Of a stretch of DNA of 64,000 nucleotides, positions 27,436-52,484 are shown piece after piece. How positions within the stretch are numbered: the stretch's first letter is position 1; each line of letters opens with the position of its first letter. The stretch is taken from assembly GCF_000336955.1 (NCBI RefSeq), contig NZ_AOLI01000004.1, positions 1 to 64,000 on the forward strand. Direction: 5' to 3'. A program made the translations under genes and the position numbers. Below the pieces are notes generated by a model, which was not told the origin of the DNA, did not search any database, and saw only the letters and a list, made by a program, of their open reading frames with translations. This DNA is from Haloferax larsenii JCM 13917 (GTDB taxonomy: Archaea > Halobacteriota > Halobacteria > Halobacteriales > Haloferacaceae).

Positions 27436-27441
27436 GATTTG

Positions 27442-30820: not shown

Positions 30821-31035
30821 GCTCTTATGTTCTAACCGTGGCCTACTTGATGGTTTTCCAAAGGACGTAGATGGACGTTTGCCTGAATACTTCGCAGATT
30901 CCTGATTTTCAACTCGAATTATATATGACAATAATACTAGTGGTTTGGCCAGATCTTCCGGTCCTCTACCTCGCTAAGATCACACTGCAATACTCGAAAT
31001 CTAATACTATCCCTTCGGAGTGGCTCATCTCACGG

Positions 31036-35048: not shown

Positions 35049-35949
35049 CGTTACCTTCCTATCGCCGTCGCGTCTTGCGACCTACGCGGACTGCCAGCGG
35101 AAGTTCGATTATGAGTACGTACAGAAGGTCAACGTCCCAGAAAAGACACGGTTGTACCTGAATCAGGGGCGTGCCTATCACGGAACGATCGAGGTAGTCT
35201 GTGAAGCAACTAGCCCAGAAGATGACGCGCAGCTCATCTACGACCGGGCAGTAGACGCATTCCCAGAGCAATGGAGAGAGCATATCGAACCGGACGAGTA
35301 CGCGTCAAACGCTCACCAGGAATACCAGCGCCTCGAAAATCTAGAGGCAATCAAGACCTTCTTTGACCCTGATGGTGGCCACGGCATCGATCACGCTCGT
35401 CAATCCGTCGAGACGGAGAAGTGGCTCGAATGCGTCGAGAACGGCATCGGACTGCATGGGAGGGCCGATAATATTCTCCGGACGGATGAAGGAATTCACG
35501 TCATTGATTACAAACGGAAGCTCAGGGACGTAATTACGTTCAACACTGCTAGCGTCCTTGAAGACCACTTAGACGGAACGGATCACGACCCGAAGAGAGT
35601 CAAGAACGCGTTTCAGACGGCCACATACATCGAGGGCGTCAAACAGTCCGACCTCTACGAAGAGGGAATGTCCGTTCAGTTCAGTTTCTACGGCCTCCTA
35701 AACCGGACATCATTCGAGAGTACACCCGACGGATACCAGATCTCTGTTCGCGGGTACCCACGTGAGACGACGGACATCTATGAAGAGTATTATGACACGA
35801 TATGGAATCTCATGCAACGTGCACACGAAGGAATTACGAGCAGCTCTCACATCCCAGACCCGTTCCCACTCATTCACGATGAAGCATGTCCTGACTGCGA
35901 CTTCCGGGAGATGTGTGCAGATTATCTCGCAGAGGGGGTGCAGCGATGA
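35041..35949 (+). CDS. RecB/Cas4-type nuclease with Fe-S cluster signature (detached AddB nuclease domain)
   Basis: 302 residues, GTG start overlapping the previous stop. It begins FLSPSRLATYADCQRKFDYE, as AddB C-terminal nuclease domains do. The active site is GLHGRADNILRTDEGIHVID followed by YKRK (D...DYK). The first cysteine at about residue 16 and the C-terminal CPDCDFREMC would bind an iron-sulfur cluster as in AddB and Cas4. Splitting AddB into helicase-like and nuclease polypeptides is the odd feature. It overlaps the AddA-like gene by ATGA. Confidence 0.78.
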   Translation: MTDVTFLSPSRLATYADCQRKFDYEYVQKVNVPEKTRLYLNQGRAYHGTIEVVCEATSPEDDAQLIYDRAVDAFPEQWREHIEPDEYASNAHQEYQRLENLEAIKTFFDPDGGHGIDHARQSVETEKWLECVENGIGLHGRADNILRTDEGIHVIDYKRKLRDVITFNTASVLEDHLDGTDHDPKRVKNAFQTATYIEGVKQSDLYEEGMSVQFSFYGLLNRTSFESTPDGYQISVRGYPRETTDIYEEYYDTIWNLMQRAHEGITSSSHIPDPFPLIHDEACPDCDFREMCADYLAEGVQR

Positions 35950-38900
35950 GCGACGAAGTACCTGACTGGCTCCCAACCATCGAGGACGATGAGGATCCGA
36001 AGCCACAGCAGCGGACGATTATCGAGTCGGAGCGATATCCCATGCGGGTACTCGCGGGTGCAGGCACTGGAAAGACGTTCACGATGGTCCGGAAAATCGA
36101 GAATCTCATCGATGAACACGGGGTCTCTCCGGATCGGATTCTCGCGTTGACCTTCACCAACAATGCCGCTGATTCGATGCGTGAGAAACTCAACGCAAAA
36201 CTCGGACCCGCAGGGTATGACGTCGACGCATATACGTACCACTCTATCTGCAACGAGATACTGACGGACTATGCCTATGACGCGGGATTAGATCCAGACT
36301 TCGAGATCGCAACGGATGCTGAAAAGTACGTCATCGTGCTCGACGTCCTCGACGAAATCGACTACCGTGCCGTCAAACCCAACGTCTACGGCCCAGATTC
36401 ATACGCTAACGGCGTCGCAACGAAACTCCTCTCGTTTATCGGGTCGATGAAGCGAAGTGGGATTTCGCCCACAGAGATCGAGGAGTATCTCGGATCACCA
36501 GAACAAGTCTATGAACTCGATGCTGTGCCAGACCGTGTTGAGGAGATTGCAAGTGACCATCTTGGTGGTCGTTCAGTTTCGACCGTCCTCGACGGCATTC
36601 CGGATACACGAACCGACCTCGTCGCAGAACGGGATGCCCTCGGAGATGAAGGATTAGAGGCGAGCATCAAAGACTTCCTCGACCGACTCGTTGACCTCTG
36701 TGATGCACTCGAAGTAGCGTTTGAGGAGCATGAGGCTGGTGAGCGGTCGCTTCCCGAGGATGCACACAAGCTGCCGAAATATCTGCTTGGAGGGTACAGT
36801 AGCGCTCCGAGCGGGATTCCAAACGACCTGAAGCTCGAACTGACAGACTACCTCCGAAACGCTCTCGACGAGTGCAAAACGGCCCTGGATTTGAACACAG
36901 GGTATGAGGCATACGAGCGAGAGCTCGACCGTCGAAATCTGCTTGACTTCGATGGTCTCGTGGTCAAGACAGTAGAGCTGCTCGAGACTGACGTCGGAGA
37001 GAGACTGGGCGACCGATGGGACTACGTTTTCTGTGACGAGTTCCAGGACACTGATCGCCTCCAGTTCGACCTCATTACGTCCCTCGTCTCTGAGGATCGC
37101 ATATTCGTCGTGGGAGACGACGACCAAGCGATCTACGAATGGCGCGGAGCGAACGTCTCGAACATCACTGACGAACTCGACGACGTCTTCGGCCCCGATC
37201 TCGAAGACGAACCGCTAGAACAGAACTTCCGGTCACGTCAACCGATTCTAGACCTCGCAAATGATGCACTAGAGCGGTTAGCGGATCGGCGGAGCACCAA
37301 AACGCTCACGCGTGTCGACGAACCCGACTTCGACGGAGACACGGTCGCAGTCGTGGAGGAAGCCGACGACGAAGGCGACCGAGCTGAACAGTTAGTGACT
37401 GTCACCCGGAACCTTCTGAGTGGCGATGCAGAAGCACTCAACCGGGCGTACGACCCAGGGGAGATAGCACTCCTCGTTCGGAATAACGACCACGCAACCC
37501 CAATTCTCGAAAGGTTCGACGAGGCTGGAATACCCTATCAGGTTGCGGGAGACCTCTCCACGGAATCAATCGGGGTTGGCACCGTCGTCGCCTATCTCAA
37601 GGCGTTGGCTCGTCCCGAAGAAGACGACGTAAGCTGGAATCGGGTACTGACGATGCGTTACCGTCTCACTGATGCTGATCTACGTCGTGTCAATAGCCAC
37701 GAGGACGGTGCATATGCTGGGATATGTAACCAACCCCTCGAAGTATTCGATGAGCCCGACCGTCTTCAGGAAGTACGAGAACACATTTCCCGCCTCCTCA
37801 AACTACGTGAAACAGTCTCTCTCAGCCACCTTTACCGGGAACTCAAACGCCTGACCAACATCGATTGGTATCTCAGCGAGCAAGAGCGTCGTGACCTGGC
37901 GCAGCTGGACGAGATAATTGACCAGTATGGAAACGACGCTGTACAGCCCCCACTCACGCCGCAATTCATCGACTCGCTGCAGCATTATGACTCGCTCCTC
38001 GAGGAGAGCGGGTCGGCACCGACAAGTCAGCCAGAACTGGCCGACGACGCGGTCAACGTCATGACCATTCACAAGAGTAAGGGACTCGACTTTCCCGTGG
38101 TTCTGATGCCCAGGTTGACCGCTGACGAGTGGGAACCCGGGTCACGAACCTACGATACATTCGAGTCAGCACTGTCTGAAGGTCCAGAATCAGTGTTCGA
38201 CAAAGATCTCGTCGCTCAAGATGCCAACGAGGCCCGCAGAATACTTCACGTGGGGATCACTCGTGCCGAAGAGATACTCGTACTCCACGGAAGCATAGAG
38301 GAAGACGACACAGACGACGAAAGGCCCGTACACGATGCTGTCGAGAGCATCCTTCCAGAATCCGTTCCCTGGCGGCCAAGCAACGGTCACCTCCCGATCT
38401 GGCGCGATTTACAGGAGTGTCTTCCATCGAACCATGCTGATTGGACTGCCTCTCTCGCGAGCACAGTAGTTGGAGACGTCTCTGGACAAGTGACGTACGG
38501 CTCTGAGAACCTCTCAGCATCAGACGGACGAGACCGCGTGATCACATTCGGAAACAAGCTCATAGAAGGCTCAATAGAGAGAGAACCTGAGAACCGACGA
38601 TTTTCAATTGACGCCTTGACTGGGCCAATGACCCCAAACCCGGCACTCCAGCACAGTTACACCTCACTTGAGGCCTACGAGGAGTGCCCCCGACAGCACT
38701 TCCTGGACTACGTCGTCAACGGGTTCTCCGACTACCGTGAGAACGGCTATGGCGGAGATGGTATCTCACAGCGGATAGTCGGGCTTCTGTTTCACGATAC
38801 CGCAGAAATCGCTGCGAAGGAACAGGCAGCAGAGCGAGCAGAATGGTACGCTATTTGTGAGCGGCTGGCCGGACAACGGCGTGCCACGGATGAATTACCG

Positions 38901-39380
38901 GTCGCGAAGGAATGCATCGACCGGTATTTCGACCTCGATCTAAGCGGCTGGGAAATCGTCGATGCTGAACGAGAGTTCCAGCTAGAAGTGGATGGCCACG
39001 AACTCGTCGGGTTTATCGACGCCGTCTACCGGACCCCGGACGGTGAGTTGGTCGTCATCGACTACAAAGCCACCGAGCGTCACCGAGACATTGACGAGAA
39101 CAAGCAGCTGCCACTGTACCTGCTCGCCTGTCGTGACCTCTACGAGGAACCGATTACCAGCGCGGGATACGCCTATGTCGGCGATATCGGTCCAAAAGTC
39201 GAGGCCCGTTCGTTCGATGAGGGTGAACTGGATTCAGTACGAGCAGCGGTGTCGACGACGATGGATCGAATCAAGGAGACATCGTTCCGCGGGTACGAGA
39301 CTGGGGAGCACTGTCGGTGGTGCCAGCACAGTTCCCTTCCTTGTGGGGAAGAATGGCGTCAAGAAGACGGAGGCCGCTAG
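35946..39380 (+). CDS. AddA-like UvrD/RecB helicase-nuclease
   Basis: 1144 residues of superfamily 1A. Motifs in order: AGAGTGKTFTMV (I, about 36), ALTFTNNAADSM (Ia), FCDEFQDTDRLQFD (II, about 362), GDDDQAIYEWRGA (III), QNFRSRQ (IV), VMTIHKSKGLDFPVV (V, about 705) and HVGITRAEEILVL (VI). The C-terminal RecB-like nuclease has GFIDAVYRTPDGELVVIDYK at about 1020-1040 and a Cys cluster (HCRWCQHSSLPC) for an Fe-S site. It is therefore a complete AddA-type translocase. It forms one operon with the split AddB genes. Confidence 0.87.
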   Translation: MSDEVPDWLPTIEDDEDPKPQQRTIIESERYPMRVLAGAGTGKTFTMVRKIENLIDEHGVSPDRILALTFTNNAADSMREKLNAKLGPAGYDVDAYTYHSICNEILTDYAYDAGLDPDFEIATDAEKYVIVLDVLDEIDYRAVKPNVYGPDSYANGVATKLLSFIGSMKRSGISPTEIEEYLGSPEQVYELDAVPDRVEEIASDHLGGRSVSTVLDGIPDTRTDLVAERDALGDEGLEASIKDFLDRLVDLCDALEVAFEEHEAGERSLPEDAHKLPKYLLGGYSSAPSGIPNDLKLELTDYLRNALDECKTALDLNTGYEAYERELDRRNLLDFDGLVVKTVELLETDVGERLGDRWDYVFCDEFQDTDRLQFDLITSLVSEDRIFVVGDDDQAIYEWRGANVSNITDELDDVFGPDLEDEPLEQNFRSRQPILDLANDALERLADRRSTKTLTRVDEPDFDGDTVAVVEEADDEGDRAEQLVTVTRNLLSGDAEALNRAYDPGEIALLVRNNDHATPILERFDEAGIPYQVAGDLSTESIGVGTVVAYLKALARPEEDDVSWNRVLTMRYRLTDADLRRVNSHEDGAYAGICNQPLEVFDEPDRLQEVREHISRLLKLRETVSLSHLYRELKRLTNIDWYLSEQERRDLAQLDEIIDQYGNDAVQPPLTPQFIDSLQHYDSLLEESGSAPTSQPELADDAVNVMTIHKSKGLDFPVVLMPRLTADEWEPGSRTYDTFESALSEGPESVFDKDLVAQDANEARRILHVGITRAEEILVLHGSIEEDDTDDERPVHDAVESILPESVPWRPSNGHLPIWRDLQECLPSNHADWTASLASTVVGDVSGQVTYGSENLSASDGRDRVITFGNKLIEGSIEREPENRRFSIDALTGPMTPNPALQHSYTSLEAYEECPRQHFLDYVVNGFSDYRENGYGGDGISQRIVGLLFHDTAEIAAKEQAAERAEWYAICERLAGQRRATDELPVAKECIDRYFDLDLSGWEIVDAEREFQLEVDGHELVGFIDAVYRTPDGELVVIDYKATERHRDIDENKQLPLYLLACRDLYEEPITSAGYAYVGDIGPKVEARSFDEGELDSVRAAVSTTMDRIKETSFRGYETGEHCRWCQHSSLPCGEEWRQEDGGR

Positions 39381-40504
39381 TAGGTCATCGGGAAGGCCGG
39401 TTGACCCGTCGACCGCTTATCGTCAGCTATTGCGAACAAGGGATGGATATCTGCGAGCGTATAGGTTTCGAGACACGCGTACAGGTTTGAGGCTCGGGTA
39501 TCCTCTCCTGCTGCGCTAGCCTCTAGCCACGCCTCACCGAAGTATGGAACGTCGCTGTTGAATACGGTGGGATCCCCAATATCATCAGACGGAGGGTCGC
39601 GGTCTTCCTCTCGCATGATCTCCCACTGACTCTCGCGCCACGTCTGTGGTTCAAGCTCAGTTTCGTAATCCGTCCAGAGCGTCTTCGGTGCGGGCGATCC
39701 AACATATTCAGCCATATCCTCGAGTGAACCCTCCCCCAGGACCCGATTCTTTGCCGACGCGAGGTCGGCATGATAGTAGGACTCGAGTGCTGTACGTACA
39801 CTCTCTGCTCGTCCAGGGTCACCGATTTCCGCAGCGGCCCGTTCCGCACGACCCACCAAGACTGGGAGGTCGAACCACGCGCCCCCGAAGGTGATGAGAA
39901 CATCGACTTCCCTCGCATCGAGCCAGTTCACAACCGCCTCAATAGCGTCAAGTTCTGCAGAAGCCGTCTCGTCATCACGGAAGAGGACCTCAGCCTCAAT
40001 CTCCTCGCTCGGACTGCCTCGGTATCCAACGCCGGTACAGAGTAGTTCCTGATGGTCTGGATTCGGTGGTTCGAGTTCTCGCTCGGAAACAGTCGTAATC
40101 GTCTCGATGTCGAGTGCTGCAATGGCATCGGCTGCACCGAGTCGACGAACGGTGTCAGTCGTGTCTGAAGGGGACATCTCTGGACGGTCAGATAGCTGGC
40201 GGACCTGCCGATCCCACTTTGCTTTGATACCGATAGTTCCCTGGTACACGTCGGGGTTGACGTCGTCGAATTCGTACCAGGAGCCTTCTTCGAAGGAGTA
40301 GTCGACGAGATCGCAGTCGTCATCGTCGAAAACTGTGAGCTTCACGTGCGTCCCCAGCAAATCTGAACAGTGGACAAGTTGGGCCCACCAGTCGTGGTCT
40401 GGAGTTCGTTCGACCTTGTCGATCCGCAACGGCACTGTAAGCCCGTACTTACCATCTCGTTCCGCTGCGACGAGATTGCTCGCGGTCAGGGTGTCTGTTG
40501 CCAT
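39377..40504 (-). CDS. OB-fold plus DnaQ/PolB-type 3'-5' exonuclease
   Basis: 375 residues. The N-terminal 105 residues read like an OB fold (LTVPLRIDKVERTPDHDWWA, GTHVKLTVFDDDD, WYEFDDVNPDVYQG), suitable for single-stranded DNA. The C-terminal part is an RNase H-like exonuclease: ALDIETITT (D132, E134), LITFGGAWFDLPVL and YTLADIHPLF as the third motif. It runs opposite to the AddAB-like genes, overlapping addA by 4 nt at the 3' end. A TATA-like GTTATACC lies about 26 nt before the ATG. Confidence 0.7.
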   Translation of the reverse strand: MATDTLTASNLVAAERDGKYGLTVPLRIDKVERTPDHDWWAQLVHCSDLLGTHVKLTVFDDDDCDLVDYSFEEGSWYEFDDVNPDVYQGTIGIKAKWDRQVRQLSDRPEMSPSDTTDTVRRLGAADAIAALDIETITTVSERELEPPNPDHQELLCTGVGYRGSPSEEIEAEVLFRDDETASAELDAIEAVVNWLDAREVDVLITFGGAWFDLPVLVGRAERAAAEIGDPGRAESVRTALESYYHADLASAKNRVLGEGSLEDMAEYVGSPAPKTLWTDYETELEPQTWRESQWEIMREEDRDPPSDDIGDPTVFNSDVPYFGEAWLEASAAGEDTRASNLYACLETYTLADIHPLFAIADDKRSTGQPAFPMTY

Positions 40505-40627
40505 AATAGTCCCACCGAACCAGAGGTATAACTACTTTTTGATGGTGGTATTTTCATACTACCGCATCTGGAATGCTTTTATTCGTAACGCTTATTTCGT
40601 GACAGAGTATTTGTGGCCTCAAAGAGA

Positions 40628-40783
40628 ATGACATCTGAACACACGAGTCGGCCTTCATCCGACAAACGAGCTGAGATTACAGCTGGATGGAGCGAACCTA
40701 CAGATTGTCGTACGGAAGGTGGCCATACCGAATCTCGGTCGGATTACACCCAAATGATGAAGAGCCAATTTCGAATCCAATGA
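40628..40783 (+). CDS. Possible 51-residue leader protein upstream of the PLD-ATPase gene
   Basis: Starts MTSEHTSRPSSDKRAEITAG and ends with a TGA overlapping the ATG at 40780 (ATGA). Hydrophilic and probably disordered. If real, it couples translation to the PLD gene; if not, the PLD gene starts earlier, at 40687, in a different frame. The ATGA overlap and haloarchaeal amino-acid bias favour it moderately. Confidence 0.35.
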   Translation: MTSEHTSRPSSDKRAEITAGWSEPTDCRTEGGHTESRSDYTQMMKSQFRIQ

Positions 40784-42927
40784 AGTTCGACGTTCCTCTC
40801 GATACCGGAACCAGTGATCACAGCCACGTCGAGATTTTCAAGAGCTGGCGGTCATTCTCCGACGTATTCGATGGCGCAAAACGAATGCGTGTCGTCACCT
40901 ACTGTGACTCCCCCGAGTTTATTCTGGATCTCTTCGAAGACCTCGACGACTTGGAGTCCTTAGAGGTGGTCGTCGGGGACGTCTCCGACTACCGCGAGCG
41001 CCTCATCGACAAGCCCGACCTCGCAGATCGGCTTGAACAGCTCAGGAGTGAAGGCAAACTCGTAATCTACCTTTGTGAGAACAAGGAAGTTCACTCCAAG
41101 CTGTATCTCGTCGAGTACAACGACTCAGTCTTAGAAGAAGCGGATGAGAACGGCGATGAGGATCAGATGACCCTTGGCGGAGAGGCTACGGTTGAAACCG
41201 AACCCGAGGACACCGATGACGGTACACCGGCGAAGGTCATTGTTGGCTCCCCGAATCTCTCTCGAAATGCATGGTCGAATCAGACGAACATGGGCGTCGT
41301 CTACGATACGAAGACGGACAGTGAGCTCTACGAGGAGTTTGAGGAGCTTTATCGCGATCACCGGGACTCGTACAACAGTGGTGGACCCTTCTTGGAAGAT
41401 CTCTCCGAACAACTCGAACTCTCGGACGATGACCGAGAAGAGGTAATCAAACTGTACACCGAAGGGCGTGTGGGTACACAAGACGAACTAGGGGAGATTC
41501 ACGGTCGTCTCGCAGACCATATCGATGCAGAAGTTGAGGCGGTGGATCTCGCGCTCGATGGAGGCACGGATACCGTCGCAGAGCAGGAGACAGAGGAGCC
41601 AGAGCTCGATACAGAAGACGAATCTGTCGAGAATGATCCAGATTTGGAAGATGCGCCACAGGACCGCATCACTTTGTCTCTACGCGGGTACGAAGAATCG
41701 ACAGTTGATACGTTGTCGCAGATGACTGACTTCGATGCGACCGTGTCGAATGATACGTTGACGACGACCCCAGATGCGTTCCAGCGGTATGCACAACAGG
41801 TGTTCGATGTCCCGACAATGCACCTGAACGAGTCCAAAGACGAGCTGAAGTTCCATTACGACGGCACGGTCTATCGTGTCACGCAGCCACCGTCTAACCC
41901 AGAGCGTGTCGACGAAGCGCTGGCCGAGATTGAGGACTACTTTGCGACAGTGGACAACTATGGGAATTCCAACAACCAAACTGCAGTCAAGGCCCACATG
42001 TATGAAGCACTACTCTGGTTCTTCTGGGCGCCGTTCGCCAATCGACAGGCTCAGTTCTATCGTGAGCACGGGATTAACCTCGACAAGGCTCTTCCGTACC
42101 TCTACGTCTTTGGCGAGTCAAACGGAGGAAAAGGGACATTCTGTCGATTTGCCCTATCACTGATTAGTGGAAACCGTGTCGAAGCACCCGTCGACGCAGA
42201 CGAAATTGGGAAGCGAAAAGTCCGGAATCTGCGTTCAGCACACACGTCGTTCCCTGTCGTCGTCGACGACATCACCAAGCAGAAGGTGAACTCGCTGGAT
42301 ACGCTTCGAAACTATTGGAGTGGATGGACCGGCGAAACGGCCTATCCGATGTTCGCCTTCATCTCGAACGATAAACGCCCTGGAGAGTGGTTCCGTAACC
42401 GTGCTAAGATCCTCCGATTCGACGTGAATTTCATGACCTCACATCAGGGGGAAGCTGAAGTAAACCGTCTAATCGACACGGAGAACCCGATTTTCCAGTG
42501 GTTTGGGTACGAGTATCTCAACCGCGATCTCGAGCTGGGAACTGACTCTGACGCACTTCGGGAAGTGAGGGCGGCCATGCAGGACCTCTATGAGCATGCC
42601 GACCGTCCACTGCCAGACTACTTCCCAACCGAACCGGCTGAGCAAGCTTATGACACTGGCAGAGAGCGCTGGCGAAACCTCATCGACCGAGAGGACGTCG
42701 AAATTGCTAAAGACAGTGATACTCTACAGGTGACCTTCCCGGAGTCGATGAACTTCGAACTCCACGAGTACAAGCGCGACCCTCCGATGACGGTTCGAAT
42801 TGAAAAGCGGGGCCTCGATTTGATCATTAAGACGCCGGACGAGTTCTTCGACTGGCTTGGGGAGACGACTAACGGCGATCCGCGAGAAGGATTCCTCTCA
42901 CGCGCTCGTAGCCTTCTGAAGCGGTAA
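40780..42927 (+). CDS. Phospholipase D-like nuclease fused to an SF3-like ATPase
   Basis: 715 residues from ATG 40780 (an in-frame start at 40687 would add 31). The N-terminal 190 residues are a PLDc_2-type domain: VHSKLYLVEYND (H-x-K, about 105) and VGSPNLSRNAWSNQTNMGVV (about 155-175). A long acidic linker (235-300) leads to a P-loop domain with YVFGESNGGKGTFCRFAL (about 444), VVVDDITK as Walker B and FISNDKRPGEWFRNRAKILR, which resembles SF3/D5 helicases of viruses and plasmids. PLD and ATPase modules in one chain suggest a motor-driven nuclease. It lies 240 bases before the ubiquitin-like operon. Confidence 0.72.
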   Translation: MKFDVPLDTGTSDHSHVEIFKSWRSFSDVFDGAKRMRVVTYCDSPEFILDLFEDLDDLESLEVVVGDVSDYRERLIDKPDLADRLEQLRSEGKLVIYLCENKEVHSKLYLVEYNDSVLEEADENGDEDQMTLGGEATVETEPEDTDDGTPAKVIVGSPNLSRNAWSNQTNMGVVYDTKTDSELYEEFEELYRDHRDSYNSGGPFLEDLSEQLELSDDDREEVIKLYTEGRVGTQDELGEIHGRLADHIDAEVEAVDLALDGGTDTVAEQETEEPELDTEDESVENDPDLEDAPQDRITLSLRGYEESTVDTLSQMTDFDATVSNDTLTTTPDAFQRYAQQVFDVPTMHLNESKDELKFHYDGTVYRVTQPPSNPERVDEALAEIEDYFATVDNYGNSNNQTAVKAHMYEALLWFFWAPFANRQAQFYREHGINLDKALPYLYVFGESNGGKGTFCRFALSLISGNRVEAPVDADEIGKRKVRNLRSAHTSFPVVVDDITKQKVNSLDTLRNYWSGWTGETAYPMFAFISNDKRPGEWFRNRAKILRFDVNFMTSHQGEAEVNRLIDTENPIFQWFGYEYLNRDLELGTDSDALREVRAAMQDLYEHADRPLPDYFPTEPAEQAYDTGRERWRNLIDREDVEIAKDSDTLQVTFPESMNFELHEYKRDPPMTVRIEKRGLDLIIKTPDEFFDWLGETTNGDPREGFLSRARSLLKR

Positions 42928-43121
42928 CTAGGAAACTTGCGTAGATCGGCGGACGCGATGTGACCTTCTCGTGGGACTCAACACTGCTGAATACACTCTT
43001 TAGATTGTCGTTTGGCCCTCGGGCTGGCGGATTTCGTACACTGGGGAGTCAAATCCGATTGATCTACACCATAGTATCTCCCAACGGAGAGGTACAATCC
43101 CCAATTTAGCGTGTTTCGAAT

Positions 43122-43143
43122 GTTACTAGTGGCAAGATATAAG
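43122..43143 (+). promoter_or_regulatory. Promoter of the ubiquitin-like operon with GTTACTAGT element
   Basis: GTTACTAGT at 43122-43130 is followed by a TATA box (TATAAG, ending 43143) and then 24 bases to the ATG at 43168. The promoter at 48339-48360 has the same element and exactly the same spacing. Confidence 0.65.
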
Positions 43144-43167
43144 TCATCACAGAATAGATGTAGTGGT

Positions 43168-43440
43168 ATGGGAGCTGAAGACCAAGGGGAGGGGAACCGG
43201 ACGTACCCGATCCACATCGGGAATACGACGATTCGGTTCGACGACCCCGTTCAGACCGCAGAGACGATTATGATCGACGCAGGAACGGACGAGGATAAAA
43301 CCGACCAGAAGTGGCTCTACGCTCTGGAAGGAAAGAACAAGCCCAAAGACACTCAGTTCGAGGACTCCGACACCGTCGACCTCAGTGACGAGAATCGGAA
43401 GTTCTTCCGAATTGTCCCGAAGGGGAGCGGTCGGTCGTGA
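43168..43440 (+). CDS. Ubiquitin-like protein (multiubiquitin family, single domain)
   Basis: 90 residues from the leaderless ATG at 43168. After a short acidic tail it has RTYPIHIGNTTIRFDDPVQT, KWLYALEGKNKPKD and DTVDLSDENRKFFRIVPKG, the pattern of the Multi_ubiq beta-grasp domain found in bacterial ubiquitin-like operons. The C-terminus is KGSGRS, so no diglycine is exposed and none is present to be exposed by simple trimming. It overlaps the E2-like gene by 4 nt (GTGA). It is the presumed modifier of this system. Confidence 0.75.
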   Translation: MGAEDQGEGNRTYPIHIGNTTIRFDDPVQTAETIMIDAGTDEDKTDQKWLYALEGKNKPKDTQFEDSDTVDLSDENRKFFRIVPKGSGRS

Positions 43441-43928
43441 GTGAAGGCGAAACGTCGACGGGCGAGATGGATGGACCTTCCCCACCAGCCAGGCTCGCAG
43501 AAGAGAATCTGAAACCTTCGTTTCAGAAGGCGCTCTCTGCCCTCCGAGAAAGACACACACCAGCAATCCCGGTCGGAAGACACGACGGGGAAATCGCAGT
43601 CTGGCTTGGTGAGTTCGATTTCACTGTGTATCAACACCCCTACACACCAGAGCAAGCGGAGGTGTACATTTTCCTCCCTGAGAATTTCGTCAACAGCGAT
43701 CCTCACTGGGTTGTGACTGTCCCGCCAGTCGAACGCGCCGATCGGGAGGGGTGGGAAGACAACAATCCTGACCGTCGTGACCAAGACAAGTATCTTCAGA
43801 ACGACTTGGGAGTCGATCAGGGAATCACCTTCAGCCTCCGGTGGTCACATTTGAATTTTAAGCCAGAAAAGCCGGAGCACGCTGTGCGTGCAATCGAAGT
43901 GATCGACGCAGGCTTCGAAACGGGATAG
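43437..43928 (+). CDS. E2-like protein (prokaryotic E2 family E type) without cysteine
   Basis: 163 residues, GTG start. The order VWLGEFDFTVYQHPY, EVYIFLPENFVNSDPHWVVT and ITFSLRWSHLNFKPEKPEHA follows the prokaryotic family-E E2-like proteins that partner Multi_ubiq, ThiF and JAB genes. The entire chain has no cysteine, so it cannot form a classical thioester. It may be a scaffold like UEV proteins or use another nucleophile. It ends one base before the JAB-E1 gene. Confidence 0.65.
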   Translation: MSEGETSTGEMDGPSPPARLAEENLKPSFQKALSALRERHTPAIPVGRHDGEIAVWLGEFDFTVYQHPYTPEQAEVYIFLPENFVNSDPHWVVTVPPVERADREGWEDNNPDRRDQDKYLQNDLGVDQGITFSLRWSHLNFKPEKPEHAVRAIEVIDAGFETG

Positions 43929-43929
43929 C

Positions 43930-45696
43930 ATGACAGGAGCGTACCGTGCCCGTGCAGTTGGTGAGAGGTCGCCACCCAGTCAGGCGGCAGAATTCCAGTT
44001 TGCGCTCAGTGAAGGGACGTGGCTGACACTTGATGGATACCTGAAGCCGCCCGAAGGTCACCACCTACATGGTTTACCCGAGCGAGGAGCAATCGGAATC
44101 ATCACCCCGAGCACGGGAGACAGAAGGACGACGTACCTGTTACAGAAGGTCGTTGATCCGAGCCCGGGAGACGTCTACTTCGACGGCCAGCTAAAGTTCC
44201 ACCCAGACTATACGCTGCGGGCAATCAACGAGGCTGCAGAAGTGCCAGGAGCAGGCCTGATCTTCATCCACACCCATCCGGGAAGCGGTGCGACTCCGTC
44301 AGGCCCCGACAAAATAGCTGACAAAGAAGAACTGTACGACATCGGTCTGAACCTCGGCTCAGAAGTCCCGCTCGCAGCGGGTATCGTGACAGATCGTCCT
44401 AACCCCGAGACTGGCCAACGCGAATGGTCGGTTCGGGCGTATGAGTTCGTCTACCCGAACTCATCACAGGCTGAAGGGGCAAGCCGTACCGGAGAGGAAA
44501 CGGGTGAGTTCACGCACGCAACGGCGGTCCGAGTTGTAGGTGAACGAATCAAAAAGCTCCCAACGATCAGGGATGCTGCTGGGCCGGCTGGTACGGGCGG
44601 GGCGATCGACTCAGAAGCCCAGGATTCAACGGTAGAACTCTGGGGGGAACGCGGTCAACAGACGCTTGCTGGCTTCCGCGTTGGAGTCGTAGGCCTCGGA
44701 GGCGTCGGTTCGCTCCTCGCAGAACAATTAGCGCGTCTCGGCGTTGAAGAAACGGTCTTCGTCGACTTCGACTACCTCGAACGTGCGAACCTCAATCGGT
44801 CTTACGGCGCTGCAGCTGATGATGTCGGTAAGCCGAAAGTCGAGGTGGCAAAGAAAGTCGCGGAGCGGTCGGCGACGAACCCGCGATTCACCGCACAGGC
44901 AGAATACGGAAGCGTAGTCGAGGAAGACGAGGAGCACGCTTGCCTTCCACAACTGCTCGACTGCGATGTCATCATCAACGCTGCTGACACGCACTGGGTT
45001 CGATTCCTCCTCGACGAGGTCTCACATGCCCACCTCATTCCCGTTCTCGACGGGGGTACCGAGCTCATCCCGAATGACGAAAAAGATGAACTCGATATCG
45101 GGTCTAGATCACTCATCTCCGCTACGGGACCAGGACATCCATGTCTTGAGTGCACTGGCCACTGGTTCCACGGAGATGAGGAAGAGGGCGTGATTCACGA
45201 CAGAGAGCCAGATGTCGCTCGTGGAGCGGGATACGTCCAAGGCCTGGATGGGGGTGAAGCACTGGCAGATGACGTCGATGGTGATGAACGGGCGCCTTCC
45301 GTGGCCACGAACAACGGTCTCGTGGCATCACTCCTGGCCCTTCGTTTCCAAGCGCTTGCAGTCGGCATCACCTCACAAGCCCTCGTTGGCAGTCAAGAGT
45401 ACGATGCTCTCTTTGGTACTCTTGACTGGCAAGAAGATAGCAATAATGAAAAACGGATCTCGTGCAAGGGGGACTGCGACCGGAAAGAAGCGCTCGCACG
45501 GGGCGACCACTACGAGTTGCCGACTGAGCCCGATCCGACGTTCCGGAAGGTCCTCGAAGAACACAGAGAGGGCGATCAGCAACGAGAGACCGCCGAACTG
45601 GATGCTGAAGAGCAAACAGAGAGGGGAGTCTTTCAGCGCATTACTGCGTATGTCGCTCGTCTCGTGAACCGAAGCTCGAAGGAACCGTCTCAGTAG
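43930..45696 (+). CDS. JAB peptidase fused to ThiF/E1-like adenylyltransferase
   Basis: 588 residues. The N-terminal 180 form a JAB/JAMM metalloprotease: E51 in LPERGAIGII, then IHTHPGSGATPSGPD with H114, H116 and D127. Residues about 245-480 are a ThiF/E1 domain: VVGLGGVGS (ATP loop 253-261), FVDFDYLERANLNRS with R290, and DVIINAADTHWVR. CLEC (405-408) and CKGDC (512-516) look like the structural zinc site. No free cysteine is present in the usual catalytic loop between them; the only others are C338 and C345. The JAB part could trim the modifier or remove it from targets. Confidence 0.82.
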   Translation: MTGAYRARAVGERSPPSQAAEFQFALSEGTWLTLDGYLKPPEGHHLHGLPERGAIGIITPSTGDRRTTYLLQKVVDPSPGDVYFDGQLKFHPDYTLRAINEAAEVPGAGLIFIHTHPGSGATPSGPDKIADKEELYDIGLNLGSEVPLAAGIVTDRPNPETGQREWSVRAYEFVYPNSSQAEGASRTGEETGEFTHATAVRVVGERIKKLPTIRDAAGPAGTGGAIDSEAQDSTVELWGERGQQTLAGFRVGVVGLGGVGSLLAEQLARLGVEETVFVDFDYLERANLNRSYGAAADDVGKPKVEVAKKVAERSATNPRFTAQAEYGSVVEEDEEHACLPQLLDCDVIINAADTHWVRFLLDEVSHAHLIPVLDGGTELIPNDEKDELDIGSRSLISATGPGHPCLECTGHWFHGDEEEGVIHDREPDVARGAGYVQGLDGGEALADDVDGDERAPSVATNNGLVASLLALRFQALAVGITSQALVGSQEYDALFGTLDWQEDSNNEKRISCKGDCDRKEALARGDHYELPTEPDPTFRKVLEEHREGDQQRETAELDAEEQTERGVFQRITAYVARLVNRSSKEPSQ

Positions 45697-45729
45697 AGCG
45701 AAAAATAGACAATCACAACACACGATCAC

Positions 45730-48207
45730 GTGAATCGAGAATCGTCCGTGGAGAAGACAATCGAGTGGCTAAGAAACCGACCCTACTACGAGGGGCAAAT
45801 TACCCATCAAGAGCGAACGCCAGGGTCCTCGGCCGAAACCTCACCAATCGACCTTGATCACCGGTTAGCGAGGGCACTCTCTCGTCGCGATATCAACGAA
45901 CTCTTCCAACATCAAGCGGACGCAATCGAAGTCGTCCGAGACGGAGACAATGTCGTACTCGCCACTCCGACGGCTAGCGGCAAGAGTCTCGCCTATACGG
46001 TTCCAGCACTCGAACGCGCTCTTGATCACCACGGTAAGACGCTCTATATTGCGCCGATGAACGCTCTGATTAACGATCAAAGGGACACCATTTCTAAGAT
46101 TGCTGCAGATCTTGAGGGGAGTCAGAGCGTCGACGTTGCGACATATACAGGACTCCTGACCGACCCCGAGAAACGCGAAGTTTGGGCCCGCCAACCAGAT
46201 GTTCTCTTGACCACCCCAGATATGATCCATAAAAGTTTGCTCCCCTTCTCTAAATCGCCAAAACACTGGAAGTGGCTCTTCCAACAGCTCGAAACGGTCG
46301 TCGTCGACGAAGTACACGAGTTTCGAGGGATATTCGGAAGTCACGTTTCACTAATTTTCCGTCGTCTCTCGCGTTTGGCAGAGTACTACGATTCTACTCC
46401 CCAGTACATCTGCTGCTCTGCAACTATCGGGAATCCAATCGAACATGCAGCAGCAGTCACTGGACAACAACCTAGCCAGTTCTCACTAATCAACGACGAT
46501 GCCAGTTCGACAGGCCCTCGTCAGTGGGTATTCTGGAATCCACCGTTAAGAGAAGCCGAGGAACTTGAGGCAGAATTGGAGACAGCCGACGGACCATCTT
46601 CAAATGCAGAAGGCAGCTCTGAAGCGAGTCCACCACCATCGAGCCCGGTTGAAGTACCCCACCACAACGAGATTATAGGCGGAGAGCGCCGTTCCCATCA
46701 CCCAGAGACGGTGCGGTTGTTCTGCGATTTTGTTCAACGAGGGTATCAGACGCTCGTCTTCACACGGGCTAGGCAGGGAACCGAGCAGTACGCCAACTGG
46801 TGCGATAGTAAGCTTCGAAAGCGTGGTGAACACGAGCTCGCGGACCAGGTTACTGCATACCACTCAGCACTCCAGGACGAGCGTCGGACCACCATCGAGG
46901 CAGGGCTCCGCGATGGATCCATTCGAGGTGTATGGAGTACGAATGCACTCGAGCTCGGCATCGACGTCGGCAGTCTTGACGTCGTCCTTCTCGACGGGCA
47001 CCCAGGAACGAGCATGAGCACATTCCAGCGCGCGGGGCGGGCAGGACGTGGAGAAAATCCGAGCCTCGTTGTCCTCGTAGCAAGCCCGAATCCGTTAGAC
47101 CAGTACTGTATGGCGAATCCGGATCTCCTGTTCGACGGCGACCCTGAACAAGCAGCAGTCAACCCCGCAAACACCCAAATACTAGATGACCACGTCTGCT
47201 GTGCGGCTCAAGAGCTGTTCCTGCGCACCAGTGACGACACCTACTTTGGCGCTGAATATCCGGCGACTGTTGCGTCTCTTGATGACGCGGACCAACTAGA
47301 GCGATTTAGCTCTCGAACCGGTCCCCGGTGGAAGTACATCGGAGAGGACAGCCCGCAACACACGATGGACATCCGCTCTATCGATGATCGGCAAATCGAA
47401 CTTTATGATCGACTGCGTGATCGGACACTTACCTCGCTTCCGTTTGGCGATGCGCTTCGTGATGCACACCCCGGTGCAATCTATCATCATCAAAAGGAGT
47501 CGTATCGTGTGACGGAGGCAGAATTCGATGCTGACCGTGTACTCTTGAAGTCAGTGAACACGATGGGGTATACCCGTCCACTCACTGAGAAACGAATTAC
47601 TATTGAAGAGGAGCTCAAGACGGGCGGTCTCGCCTCACAGGAGACTGTCTCTGTCGGATTTGCAGATCTCACGGTTGCAGAAGAGGTGACGGGATACATG
47701 CTCTATGACCACCCATCAGATGAGGACGGCGTCGAGCGGGCTTTCGACGAGCCGCTTCCTGAGCGGACAATTCGCACCCGTGGGCTCTATTTCACAATTC
47801 CACCGCAGATCGAGCAGGACATCAAAGCTGCGAGTGAGGAAGAGGACGGATTTCTCGCGAGTATTCACGCTCTGGAGCACGCACTGATCTCTTTGTTCCC
47901 ACTCGAGATACTCTGTGCTCGTCGCGACGTCGGTGGGCTCTCGACCGAGTATCATCCCCACACTGGATGGAGCACGATTTTCGTCCACGATGGTCATCCG
48001 GGTGGGGTAGGGCTTACTCGAGAAGCGTTCGGGAAGCTGGAGACCATGCTTGAGCGCACGTTGGAAATGCTCTCTAGCTGTCCCTGTGAAGACGGGTGTC
48101 CATCGTGCGTTCACTCCCCACAGTGTGGGAATGCGAATCGGACGCTAAACAAGCAGCTCGCAATCCGGCTTCTGAAGCAACTGTTAGAGGTTCCTGTTCA
48201 GCCGTAG
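45730..48207 (+). CDS. DUF1998 superfamily 2 helicase, MrfA/YprA-like (first copy)
   Basis: 825 residues from GTG 45730. Motifs: LATPTASGKSLAYTVPALE (I, about 78), VVVDEVHEFRGIFGSH (DEVH box, about 192), CCSATIGNP (III), LVFTRARQGTEQY (IV) and FQRAGRAGRGENP (VI). The C-terminal DUF1998 region has CPCEDGCPSCVHSPQCGN, a four-cysteine zinc site. Bacillus MrfA, the best-known relative, repairs mitomycin-damaged DNA with the exonuclease MrfB; related helicases also belong to DISARM. It follows the JAB-E1 gene by 33 bases and is probably in the same operon. Confidence 0.82.
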   Translation: MNRESSVEKTIEWLRNRPYYEGQITHQERTPGSSAETSPIDLDHRLARALSRRDINELFQHQADAIEVVRDGDNVVLATPTASGKSLAYTVPALERALDHHGKTLYIAPMNALINDQRDTISKIAADLEGSQSVDVATYTGLLTDPEKREVWARQPDVLLTTPDMIHKSLLPFSKSPKHWKWLFQQLETVVVDEVHEFRGIFGSHVSLIFRRLSRLAEYYDSTPQYICCSATIGNPIEHAAAVTGQQPSQFSLINDDASSTGPRQWVFWNPPLREAEELEAELETADGPSSNAEGSSEASPPPSSPVEVPHHNEIIGGERRSHHPETVRLFCDFVQRGYQTLVFTRARQGTEQYANWCDSKLRKRGEHELADQVTAYHSALQDERRTTIEAGLRDGSIRGVWSTNALELGIDVGSLDVVLLDGHPGTSMSTFQRAGRAGRGENPSLVVLVASPNPLDQYCMANPDLLFDGDPEQAAVNPANTQILDDHVCCAAQELFLRTSDDTYFGAEYPATVASLDDADQLERFSSRTGPRWKYIGEDSPQHTMDIRSIDDRQIELYDRLRDRTLTSLPFGDALRDAHPGAIYHHQKESYRVTEAEFDADRVLLKSVNTMGYTRPLTEKRITIEEELKTGGLASQETVSVGFADLTVAEEVTGYMLYDHPSDEDGVERAFDEPLPERTIRTRGLYFTIPPQIEQDIKAASEEEDGFLASIHALEHALISLFPLEILCARRDVGGLSTEYHPHTGWSTIFVHDGHPGGVGLTREAFGKLETMLERTLEMLSSCPCEDGCPSCVHSPQCGNANRTLNKQLAIRLLKQLLEVPVQP

Positions 48208-48338
48208 GGAAGACGATAGTCAGGCATTTCAGTGCTCTATCGACCCACTGGCCGGTGAGAGTACAGAGATTGACAGCTACCCAGACTCAGAAGAGCAACT
48301 ATTGAATTCGCCTAAATCTCAGATAGAAACATCGCAGA

Positions 48339-48360
48339 GTTACTAGTCAGAAAGTATAAG
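48339..48360 (+). promoter_or_regulatory. Promoter of the MrfB/MrfA-like operon with GTTACTAGT element
   Basis: GTTACTAGT (48339-48347), then TATAAG ending at 48360, then 24 bases to the ATG at 48385. Element, TATA box and spacing are the same as at 43122-43168. Confidence 0.65.
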
Positions 48361-48384
48361 CCAGAGGGTTACGATAGTGAGTGT

Positions 48385-48453
48385 ATGACCAACACGCGAA
48401 ACGAGGGACAACCTGCTGATAGCCAACCGGGGCAGGGAACAACTACCCACTGA
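48385..48453 (+). CDS. 22-residue leader peptide ORF before the MrfB-like gene
   Basis: Begins at the predicted transcription start and encodes MTNTRNEGQPADSQPGQGTT plus two residues, ending 3 bases before the exonuclease ATG. As a leaderless first ORF it would load ribosomes for the next gene; a role in regulation or as a tiny protein is possible. Confidence 0.35.
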   Translation: MTNTRNEGQPADSQPGQGTTTH

Positions 48454-48456
48454 GAC

Positions 48457-49914
48457 ATGGCGGGCGACCTTGGAGTACGTCTGCTTGCTCTCCGGTGTGA
48501 TGCGCTAGTCGACGCTACGACGACCGCCATCGAAGATCTCGTCGATTACTTCGATGCGGATCTCATCTACATTGTCGAAGAAAAGTTGGATATGCGAACC
48601 GTAAGCACTGTCGAGCGTACCGCCTCGTGCCCGGTAATTTACACTCGGGGAAGCGCGGTTCACACTGAGACGGTGGACGGGATTACCGTGTCCATCGTCA
48701 GGTCACTCGACTTCATCGGTGGGGCCTCTACCGCCAGCGGGCAAGGGATTCCAGACGGCGTCGACTACGTCATCTGTGATGAGATACAGACGAGCGCCGA
48801 CTCGGTCAATTTAGATGTCTCGCTCGATGGCCTCGAACACCTCGCTCGCTTCCAACACCGAACCGACCGAGAAGCGACGTTCCTCACCGGAGCCATGGAG
48901 GCAAGTTACGATTTCGTGTGGAAGGCCGACGTCGACGACGAGAGCGTTCGCCTTCCCGTCCGCGGGCTTGCTCCAACCCGTCGGCAAGGGGCACCCGAAC
49001 TCGCCTGCCTTTCGCTTGATTCGGGTGGCCGCATCGCTTTGTCCACGACACCGGCGGATAAATTCGGCCTCCGAGCGCTCTCGGGTGTGGGCAAGGGAAC
49101 CGCCCCGAAGCTCTCTCGGAATGGGTATGAGACGCGTGACGACGTCGCAGCCGCGACGGAACGCGATCTTCGTGAGGTTCGAGGTATCGGCGAGTCGAAA
49201 GCGCAGAGCATCCGCCAGAGCGCCCACGCGTTGTCCGAAGGATGCGTGATCCGTCTCACAGACGAAACTGTCCCCGCAGCAGACTACAGTCCGCTATTCA
49301 TTGATATCGAGACTGACGGCCTCAACCCGAGTATCATCTGGCTCATCGGGGTCTACGACCCTGAAACAGACGAGTACGTGGACTTCATCGATACGGAACC
49401 GTCACGAGACAACCCAGGGAAAGCCACTCGAGAGTTTGTTGCGTGGCTAGCCAGCGAGTACGATCGCACGTCCCTCATCGCGTGGAACGGCCACAACTTC
49501 GACTTCAAACACCTCAGCCGATTCATCCGAGGACACGCACCGGAGTACGCAGACTACTGGTCGGACTCCGTGTTCGAGTACGACCTGTTCGACTGGGCCG
49601 TGCGAAAAGACAACGCCATCCTCCCCGGTCGGACGAACCGAGTCGAAGACGTCGCTGAAGCGCTCGGACATGGTCGCGACTCGGCTGCTGCCGCCGTGGA
49701 TGGGAAATCACTGGCGAAGACCATCCAGCGGCTTCTCGTATCTCCAGAGCGCGCTCGAGACGTAGACTGGGAGACCGCTCGGGCATACTGTGAGGCAGAC
49801 GTCCGTGAGCTGGCTGCAGTCTACGAATCGATTGCTGAGGCGACACCTGGCCACAAGCGTGCCAGCGTTCCTGCTGATGAAAACACCACGCAGACCGGAC
49901 TCATGGACTTCTAA
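48457..49914 (+). CDS. MrfB/YprB-like RNase H-fold exonuclease with HhH motifs
   Basis: 485 residues. Residues about 205-265 hold helix-hairpin-helix motifs (LRALSGVGKGTAPKL, LREVRGIGESKAQSIRQ). The C-terminal domain has LFIDIETDGLNPSIIWLIGV (D and E at about 283-285), IAWNGHNFDFKHL (about 341) and YCEADVRELAAVY, the DEDD exonuclease pattern of YprB/MrfB. The N-terminal 190 residues are unassigned; LIYIVEEKLDMRTVS and YVICDEIQ suggest an alpha/beta fold. Two bases separate it from a second DUF1998 helicase, the same pairing as in mrfAB. Confidence 0.8.
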   Translation: MAGDLGVRLLALRCDALVDATTTAIEDLVDYFDADLIYIVEEKLDMRTVSTVERTASCPVIYTRGSAVHTETVDGITVSIVRSLDFIGGASTASGQGIPDGVDYVICDEIQTSADSVNLDVSLDGLEHLARFQHRTDREATFLTGAMEASYDFVWKADVDDESVRLPVRGLAPTRRQGAPELACLSLDSGGRIALSTTPADKFGLRALSGVGKGTAPKLSRNGYETRDDVAAATERDLREVRGIGESKAQSIRQSAHALSEGCVIRLTDETVPAADYSPLFIDIETDGLNPSIIWLIGVYDPETDEYVDFIDTEPSRDNPGKATREFVAWLASEYDRTSLIAWNGHNFDFKHLSRFIRGHAPEYADYWSDSVFEYDLFDWAVRKDNAILPGRTNRVEDVAEALGHGRDSAAAAVDGKSLAKTIQRLLVSPERARDVDWETARAYCEADVRELAAVYESIAEATPGHKRASVPADENTTQTGLMDF

Positions 49915-49916
49915 CA

Positions 49917-52484
49917 ATGCACGACGACCACGATACCGACCACAGCCAGACAGACCTCACGACCAATCCGGAGGACAACACCAACAACGGTGACATCGAT
50001 ATCGAGACGGACATCCTCCAACTCACCGGCGAGGAGCTCGAGAGTACCTACCCGAATAACCGCTACTTCGGGCAGGTTCACGAAAACTTCGAGATTCCCG
50101 CTCGTGAGGAACAGACTGTTCCAGCAGGGGACGTGCTTCCGCCCAAGATCGCTCGAAACCTCGAATTCGACCCGTGGAGCCACCAAGCAGAGGCTCTCCA
50201 GGTACTCGACCGCGGTGACAACGTGTGTGTGGCAACTAGTACATCCTCGGGGAAGACGCTAGTCTATGGTCTTCACATCGCTCGTCAATACCTTGAGGAT
50301 CCGGAGACGCGGTCGCTTATCGTCTATCCGACGAAGGCACTCAGTCGCGACCAGGAGCAAGAACTCAACGAGTTCCTTCGTAACACGCTTGGACTGGATA
50401 TCAGTGTCGGCGTCTACGACGGTGACACGAAGAGCGAGGAAAAGTCTCGCATCCGCGATGAGTGCAACGTCGTAATCACGAACTTCGTCGGGCTGAATCA
50501 GTATCTGGAGAGTCACCACCTGTGGGCAGACTTCCACTCGAACTGCTCGCTAGTCGTTATCGACGAAGCCCACATGTGGACTGGCCTCGGCGGGATGCAC
50601 GTCGCTTGGATCCTCCGACGCGCCCAACGGATCATCGATTACTACGGCGGCGATCCGCAGTACGTTCTCACGACGGCGACGATCGGCAATCCCACAGAAC
50701 ACGCTCTCGCACTCACTGGTGAGCCCGCGGCAGTCGTCGACGAAGACGGATCACCGCGAGGCATCCGTCACCTCGTGTTCTGGGACCCCCCGATGAGTGG
50801 TGACGACGGTCTCACTGACGACATCGACTCTCCGGCGCTTTCGAAGCGTCCGGCGACGGTCGAAGCCCCAGAAGTGTGGGCGCATATGTGCCAGAAGAAC
50901 GTCCAGTCGCTCCTGTTCTGTGACTCGCGGAAGCTCACCGAACTGTCTGTCAACCGTGCGAAACGGTTCATCAGCGACCCGGAGAACCGATATCAGGGAA
51001 GACCGGACCTCGCATCCTACCATGCTGGACACGGTAAACAGTCCCGTCGGGGGACAGAGTACCAGCTCAAGGAAGGACACCTCGACGGCGTCTCGACGAC
51101 GAGTGCCCTGGAAGTCGGTATCAATATCGGCGGCGTCGATGGGACCGTCCTCATGGGCTATCCGGGGTCGCGCCAGTCGTTCTGGCAACGGATCGGTCGA
51201 TCGGGCAGAGGAACGCGAGATGCGCTCTCAGTGTTCGTTCCGAGCCACTCCACGCTCGACCAGTACATTCTCCAGCACCCGGAGTACGTCCTCGAAGAAG
51301 ACCACGAGAGCGCCGTCGTTGACCTCGACAACAATCCCGTGTACCTCCAGCAACTCAACTGCGCCGCGCAGGAACTCCCCCTCTCACGCGATGATGCAGA
51401 GGATTTCGGAGGCGAGGAACGACTGGAACGTGCCGTCGAGTACGGCCGACGTAAGGGCGACCTCGAAGGATCACTCGACAGCGGCGTGATGTACGCCCAT
51501 CGCGACCGCCCACAGGATGCGATCAGCCTGTACTCCTCCGGCGGAAACACCTTCGACGTCCGACTAGCTGGCAATGGATCGGTTGACCACCAACCGATCG
51601 GCCGTGACCGGGCCTACAGAGACTACCACGAAGGTGCAACTGTTCTACACCAAGGCGAGCAGTATCAGGTCGTCGAACTCCGAGAGGACATCCCACAGCC
51701 GTACATCTCGCTCGAAAAAGCGAATGTGAGCTATTACACACAGTCTCAAGGCCAGGTTAACATCTACGACACGGTCGTCGAGGACTCGCGCGAGGTCGGG
51801 CCGTTCACGCTCAACTGGGGGTATGGAACGGTATCTGTCCACTATAGCACGTACCTCAAGCGAGAAATCGGAACTGGGGACGTACTTGAGCTGGGCAATG
51901 AAACTGGTGTGCCTCCGTTAGAGATGCGAACCCAGCTGTGTTGGGCCGAGACTCCCAACGACATAGAGCGCGCGATGCTCAACAAGCACTCGGAGTACCA
52001 CAATCCTGAATGCATCAACCTCCCACCGCGGCTGCACGGGTACCTCGGTGGGATTCACGCCGTCGAGCACGCGATGATTGCCGTCTCGCCACTCGAGCTG
52101 AAAGTCGATGGCGGTGACATCGGTGGCCTAGCAACGAATCGGCTTCCTGGAAATCCCGAGAAGAGTGGTTGGTTCATCTACGACGGTATCGAGGGCGGTC
52201 TCGGGTTTTCGCGGTCGATCTACGAACATTTCGAGGATGTTGCCCAGCGGGCCCACGACCTCATCGTTGACTGCTCATGCGGTCGCGATGAGGGGTGCCC
52301 TGCCTGTACGATGGACGACCGTTGTGGAAACGACAACCGTCCGTTGTATTCTCCCGCAGCGACGGACGTTCTGCAGCACTTATTGGGAGAGTTGGACGAC
52401 GACGATCTTTCAGAGAATCTCCCTGATACAGAAAGTGAGGTGTCTCCCGTGGATGAACAACGACCACCCGCGTCGATTTCGTAA
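49917..52484 (+). CDS. DUF1998 superfamily 2 helicase, MrfA/YprA-like (second copy)
   Basis: 855 residues. Motifs: VATSTSSGKTLVYGLHIA (I, about 104), LVVIDEAHMWTGLGG (DEAH, about 216), TTATIGNP (III), LLFCDSRKLTELSV (IV), FWQRIGRSGRGTRD (VI) and a C-terminal zinc site CSCGRDEGCPACTMDDRC (about 785). The acidic N-terminal 60 residues are extra. It is clearly related to the 45730 helicase but diverged (DEAH rather than DEVH box). Directly coupled to the MrfB-like exonuclease, it is the better mrfA counterpart; the first copy may be specialised for the ubiquitin-like system. Confidence 0.84.
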   Translation: MHDDHDTDHSQTDLTTNPEDNTNNGDIDIETDILQLTGEELESTYPNNRYFGQVHENFEIPAREEQTVPAGDVLPPKIARNLEFDPWSHQAEALQVLDRGDNVCVATSTSSGKTLVYGLHIARQYLEDPETRSLIVYPTKALSRDQEQELNEFLRNTLGLDISVGVYDGDTKSEEKSRIRDECNVVITNFVGLNQYLESHHLWADFHSNCSLVVIDEAHMWTGLGGMHVAWILRRAQRIIDYYGGDPQYVLTTATIGNPTEHALALTGEPAAVVDEDGSPRGIRHLVFWDPPMSGDDGLTDDIDSPALSKRPATVEAPEVWAHMCQKNVQSLLFCDSRKLTELSVNRAKRFISDPENRYQGRPDLASYHAGHGKQSRRGTEYQLKEGHLDGVSTTSALEVGINIGGVDGTVLMGYPGSRQSFWQRIGRSGRGTRDALSVFVPSHSTLDQYILQHPEYVLEEDHESAVVDLDNNPVYLQQLNCAAQELPLSRDDAEDFGGEERLERAVEYGRRKGDLEGSLDSGVMYAHRDRPQDAISLYSSGGNTFDVRLAGNGSVDHQPIGRDRAYRDYHEGATVLHQGEQYQVVELREDIPQPYISLEKANVSYYTQSQGQVNIYDTVVEDSREVGPFTLNWGYGTVSVHYSTYLKREIGTGDVLELGNETGVPPLEMRTQLCWAETPNDIERAMLNKHSEYHNPECINLPPRLHGYLGGIHAVEHAMIAVSPLELKVDGGDIGGLATNRLPGNPEKSGWFIYDGIEGGLGFSRSIYEHFEDVAQRAHDLIVDCSCGRDEGCPACTMDDRCGNDNRPLYSPAATDVLQHLLGELDDDDLSENLPDTESEVSPVDEQRPPASIS

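Follow-up and report, generated by a model that had tools for sequence, protein, structure and literature searches.

The closest described relatives of the locus analysed here are the Bub (bacterial ubiquitination-like) operons, reportedly described by Ye et al. (2026) and Gong et al. (2025), the former of whom are said to have found oxyester-type intermediates. Structures of the Citrobacter BubA, BubB and BubCD proteins have been deposited in the PDB (9ea4, 9ea5, 9ea8, 9eae and 9eav). Bil- and Cap2-type operons are associated with defence, and their E1 and E2 proteins carry catalytic cysteines. In haloarchaea, SAMP conjugation runs without an E2, and haloarchaea are not known to conjugate ubiquitin-like modifiers (Ubls) other than by this E2-less SAMPylation. 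In the scheme of Iyer et al. (2006), operon type 6e consists of a polyUbl, a Cys-less E2/RWD-like protein and a JAB-E1; it was reported from proteobacteria, cyanobacteria and actinobacteria and its E2s were judged inactive (PMC1779556). By 2010, no archaeal E2-like protein had been detected (Makarova and Koonin, 2010; PMC2948915).

The window, a 64,000-nucleotide stretch of Haloferax larsenii DNA, carries three genes on the forward strand, on which all operon features given below are also located. A Ubl (BubA/Multi_ubiq-like beta-grasp modifier; 43168..43440, ATG start, 90 aa, ending in KGSG/RS) is followed by an E2-like protein (BubB/Prok-E2_E-like; 43437..43928, GTG start, 163 aa) and a JAB-E1 fusion (BubCD-like; 43930..45696, ATG start, 588 aa). 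The Ubl stop codon is overlapped by the GTG start of the E2 gene and all three reading frames are open, confirming the operon of three coupled genes that an earlier sequence-only reading of this DNA had proposed. About 29 nt 5' of the Ubl ATG we noted by eye a TATA-like element (GATATAAG; 43136..43143), which is a possible candidate for a leaderless promoter. Between close copies, dN/dS was 0.02–0.22 for the E2, 0.12–0.15 for the E1 and 0.13–0.26 for the Ubl (few changes), showing that all three genes are under purifying selection, with ratios well below 1. The E2-like protein indeed has no cysteine among its 163 residues. A frameshift that hides a Cys, an objection raised beforehand against this observation, was ruled out: the E2 is collinear in 21 loci, all of which have Ser at the site discussed below, and its dN/dS is low.

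Homologues were drawn from plasmids, haloarchaeal genomes and GTDB genomes. The class was represented by 391 genomes, 16 of which encode the E2. The clade of the window (c1) comprises 21 loci, all in the order Ubl-E2-(JAB)E1, and its deepest branch is a Thermoplasmata MAG (L049) with a full c1 operon and an E1 that is 39% identical. A scan of IMG/VR yielded no viral copy. In the E1 tree, c1 formed one clade (100/96) that was sister to actinobacterial Bub E1s (99/96) inside the Bub-type set, and a second haloarchaeal clade, c2 (L009, L010, L011, L012, L013 and L027), was set apart (100/99). With Pfam, the window E1 matched ThiF (6.7e-32) and, under the curated cut-off, Prok-JAB (2.4e-4); its best match in the PDB was Citrobacter BubCD (5.9e-14). 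Neither the Ubl nor the E2 of the window had a credible match in Pfam, PADLOC or NCBIfam, and their proposed identities come from comparing profiles and folds, Pfam being blind to both.

The haloarchaeal Ubl profile matched bacterial Multi_ubiq (88%, hhalign), and the window Ubl itself matched BubA weakly (E 0.26). AlphaFold2 modelled the window Ubl, which has one domain, as a beta-grasp fold (pLDDT 80), and the best nine fold matches of this model in the PDB were all Multi_ubiq proteins, including BubA (9ea8_B, TMt 0.80). Translation bears out that the protein ends in KGSGRS and not in GG, which had been presented as an anomaly. Comparison with relatives removes the anomaly. The C-terminus of the Ubls examined from c1 and c2 is Gly plus 0–5 residues (tails KGSG/RS, MARGGG/NS, TAGGGG/FS, KGDG/ENYV and NVFG; those of c2 end in VFG plus 0–2 residues), and all haloarchaeal Ubls examined and most bacterial ones either have a Gly followed by just a short tail or terminate exactly in Gly. 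In the Citrobacter PDB entries, the fusion protein is split into its BubA and BubB chains at NNG/EE. Given these tails and this split, KGSGRS reads as the unprocessed form of the Ubl, which we infer to be cleaved by JAB; Gly88 (codon 43429..43431) is the proposed mature C-terminal residue once JAB has removed Arg-Ser. Two further types of Ubl were seen. In six c1 Ubls (L015, L016, L018, L020, L039 and L051), ~190–230 aa in length, the Ubl domain is preceded by a long N-terminal extension that is acidic and probably helical. In two bacterial Bub loci whose E1 has no JAB signature (L055 and L070), the Ubls end in DDNS and have no Gly close to the C-terminus, for which a different tail chemistry or processing is one reading.

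The E2 was placed through intermediates. Pfam Prok-E2_E was not reached by the window E2, and neither phmmer with this protein alone nor a haloarchaeal-only E2 profile found a match in the PDB. The haloarchaeal profile matched bacterial family-E E2s (78%, hhalign), and a mixed haloarchaeal/bacterial profile reached BubB at 1.5e-9 with Ser133 aligned to the conserved Ser of BubB. A profile built from bacterial and c2 E2s found BubB at 2.5e-32 and also reached canonical E2s (UBE2L6, 7e-5, N-terminal half). With the AlphaFold2 model (pLDDT 78), BubB (9eae_C) was the top match in the PDB, a weak one (E 0.26, TM 0.48/0.58). These profile and model comparisons place the haloarchaeal E2 with BubB, more weakly than the Ubl is placed with BubA.

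Ser133 (codon 43833..43835), the proposed acyl-accepting nucleophile, was the only invariant column among the 15 non-redundant c1 E2s (under 85% identity). Across 25 diverse family-E E2s its position was the only one besides the initiator that was conserved in at least 90%, with a single exception that has Cys. The conserved Ser of bacterial E2s stands in WSRH, FSWH or LSRR. In the sister clade c2, all six E2s have Cys at this position, in the motif K[YW]CI[HE], and a Chloroflexota E2 (L075) also has Cys there (WFCAH); mapped on the E1 tree, the Ser/Cys difference amounts to two changes. Direct alignment of c1-type with c2 E2s by hhalign was weak (2.6%), and the equivalence of Ser133 and the c2 Cys is proposed from motif context and from alignments through bacterial E2s, not from superposition. 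In canonical E2s the catalytic Cys lies ~9 residues before a Trp. In family E the Ser or Cys lies ~6–7 residues before the conserved Trp, and because of this difference in spacing family-E and canonical sites can be equated by motif and not by superposition.

Exchange between Ser and Cys is what nucleophile positions show, and Ser133 therefore likely marks the nucleophile position of the E2. The same pattern argues against a purely inert E2. The E2 could instead be a non-catalytic, RWD/UEV-like scaffold with a structural Ser133, the Ubl passing from the E1 adenylate directly to the target amine. Canonical E2s whose Cys is mutated to Ser form stable oxyesters and transfer poorly, so a serine E2 would need special activation. 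A scaffold would agree with the lack of Cys in the E2 and at the catalytic place in the E1, with the inactive E2s proposed for the family in 2006 (PMC1779556), and with the haloarchaeal precedent of SAMP conjugation without an E2; as of 2010, archaea had no known E2 (PMC2948915). However, a structural Ser explains poorly why Ser133 is the single invariant residue and is Cys in two separate lineages, and we regard the scaffold as unlikely.

The window E1 has an intact JAB motif and intact adenylation residues. The JAB metalloprotease signature (44080..44310; Glu51, His114-x-His116-Pro117, Ser124 and Asp127) is conserved in c1 except that His116 is replaced by Gln in L020. The ThiF/E1 adenylation domain (44632..45423) contains GxGGxG (255–260), D279, D281, R290, K303 and D353. 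The cysteines are exactly the six listed previously (C338, C345, C405, C408, C512 and C516). C405-x-x-C408 (45142..45153) and C512/C516 (45463–45477) are the first and second halves of a Zn-type site and form such a set in the alignment, in line with the zinc site suggested for them. C338 is Cys solely in near-identical copies. The invariance of C345 in c1 and its frequent occurrence elsewhere would speak for a thioester on this residue. However, C345 is located in a Rossmann strand eight residues before Asp353, outside the crossover loop, and many bacterial relatives have Ala, Ser, Met, Val or Tyr at its position, the BubCD homologue of the Citrobacter plasmid having Ala. A thioester on C345 is thus barely credible. 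Alignment rejects both C338 and C345 as the catalytic E1 Cys: neither sits at the catalytic position, the placement that had been named as an argument against the sequence-only reading.

No conserved-position Cys was found in the crossover loop of the 47 Bub-type E1s compared. With no Cys there or in the E2, the residues that define a canonical thioester cascade are both missing, and a classical Cys-Cys relay, which had been judged impossible or strongly altered, is excluded. Even the E1s of systems with a Cys-type E2 (c2 and L075) have no Cys at a conserved crossover position. The supposed strangeness of this one locus did not survive: Cys-less E2s in operons with a polyUbl and a JAB-E1 have been known since 2006 (PMC1779556) and all 47 Bub-type E1s are alike in lacking such a Cys. 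The Cys-less state is a rule of the operon type 6e family, now called Bub, for which Citrobacter structures have been solved, and not a single-locus anomaly.

The crossover loop contains a Tyr that is invariant in 47/47 Bub-type E1s (Tyr435; codon 45232..45234). In the E1 chain of 9eav the equivalent Tyr is Phe (YITG to FITG), differing from the other BubCD chains, and the depositors evidently mutated it. When UbaA was aligned into the Bub E1s, its Cys was not placed on Tyr435, in a crossover loop that is not alignable. Ser457 of the RAPS motif (codon 45298..45300) is invariant in c1, Ala or Ser in bacteria and Ala in c2. The invariance of Tyr435 and the change of the same residue in 9eav would fit an E1 that bears the acyl intermediate by itself, at either Tyr435 or Ser457, with the E2 only positioning the target. 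Against this, c2 and several bacteria have Ala in place of Ser457, Tyr435 could gate the adenylate instead, and the invariance of Ser133 and its exchange with Cys would be left unexplained; we consider an E1 acting alone quite improbable. Of the ways around a thioester that had been offered, an oxyester fits the conservation best, through Ser or Tyr where Ser or Thr had been named.

In the mechanism that we propose, JAB or another protease would trim two residues from the C-terminus of the Ubl, exposing Gly88 for adenylation by the E1. For want of a catalytic Cys, the acyl group would then move onto oxygen and form an oxyester with Ser133 of the E2, coming straight from the adenylate or by way of Tyr435 of the E1. 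The resulting E2~Ubl would modify a target amine, and JAB would reverse the conjugation. In c2 systems, in which the E2 site is Cys, the equivalent step would be a thioester. We hold such an archaeal Bub pathway, with Gly88 adenylation, a Ser133 oxyester, amine modification and JAB reversal, to be moderately likely. Going by the PDB titles of solved structures, Multi_ubiq proteins assemble into filaments, and the Ubl might serve as an oligomer or an adenylated signal without conjugation, or the locus might be decaying. The window Ubl, however, has a single domain and retains a Gly near its C-terminus, adenylation and JAB motifs are intact, and dN/dS is below 1 in all three genes, making the lack of conjugation very improbable.

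The neighbours of the operon include HmaB-like and HmaC-like genes, a UvrD/PD-(D/E)XK helicase-nuclease and MrfA-like helicases. At 24799–30931, a DUF1156/N6_N4 methylase (HmaB-like) and a DUF499 ATPase (HmaC-like) are probably Hma-type defence genes. Downstream (45730–52484), two MrfA-like helicases with an MZB domain flank a protein (48457–49914) with helix-hairpin-helix and RNase H-like domains, a set that resembles the MrfA/MrfB repair genes. Upstream (40687–42927) lies a gene whose 746-aa product carries a PLD nuclease domain at its N-terminus and, further on, a Walker A-like motif (GESNGGKGT). The downstream MrfA-like helicase and the upstream PLD protein were rejected as components of the system, being missing from the more distant c1 loci inspected.

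In Halorarius halobius, flanks ~90–91% identical to window positions 35515–40544 and 48323–52369 enclose a different Bub operon with an E1 that is only 37% identical. The slots between the conserved flanks (40545–48322 in the window, 5037–8712 in L017) have been exchanged: that of the window holds the PLD protein, the Bub operon and a helicase, and that of L017 a divergent Bub operon and an unrelated 825-bp gene (TraB-like by eye). Such an exchange resembles the turnover of defence islands. Taken together, the Hma-like neighbours and the exchangeable slot provide a context for a defence role, and the operon is probably a defence or stress accessory system. For Bub operons, no protection against phages had been shown either (PMC13373217).

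In the literature covered, which is incomplete, we found no published account of a haloarchaeal Bub operon. To what is known, this analysis adds a haloarchaeal clade, Ubl and E2 families that Pfam misses, the Ser/Cys exchange in the E2 and the invariant Tyr of the E1. Tentatively, we suggest that haloarchaeal E1-E2 cascades may run through oxygen esters on Tyr435 and Ser133, with the E2 nucleophile switched between Ser and Cys in c2 and the active loop of the E1 still free of Cys. If true, this would be a natural exchange of oxyester and thioester inside one enzyme family. The locus itself extends Bub pathways to archaea, a lineage without a detected E2 as of 2010 (PMC2948915). The question of how a Cys-less cascade works becomes a test of two residues, the invariant Ser of the E2 (Cys in c2) and the invariant Tyr of the E1.

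Gene set, E1 match and tree, and the profiles and folds of the Ubl and E2 identify the locus, by sequence and model comparison, as an archaeal Bub operon of type 6e. The E1 has a ThiF fold with an N-terminal JAB and branches within Bub; a Multi_ubiq Ubl, recognized by fold and profile, Pfam Multi_ubiq itself not being reached, is encoded just upstream; and the Cys-less protein is assigned to Prok-E2_E by the mixed profile, hhalign and a weak top fold match. Like SAMP/UbaA, the operon would have its Ubl activated by a ThiF-type E1, and the same genome carries a UbaA-like E1 (L001) at a separate locus. In UbaA, unlike the window E1, the crossover loop contains a Cys, and neither a JAB fusion nor an E2 accompanies it, a combination that the window operon does not show. 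As in Bil- and Cap2-type systems, E1, E2, Ubl (or Ubl-like target) and JAB are encoded in one operon; the catalytic cysteines of their E1 and E2 are absent from the window proteins, and the E1-E2 models of PADLOC match only the shared ThiF core. With operon type 6e the locus shares gene set, gene order and a Cys-less E2; that E2 was judged inactive in 2006, whereas the invariant Ser and its exchange with Cys suggest activity here. The likeness to Citrobacter Bub covers the Ubl fold, the JAB-E1 fusion, the crossover Tyr without Cys, an E2 with Ser, and not Cys, conserved at the site, and a Ubl with Gly before a removable tail. In contrast to Citrobacter, the window operon is archaeal, its Ubl and E2 are below Pfam detection, a single Ubl has its own gene where Citrobacter has two Ubl domains fused to the E2, and the Zn-type cysteines are kept in the E1, of which 405/408 are lost in the Citrobacter plasmid homologue.
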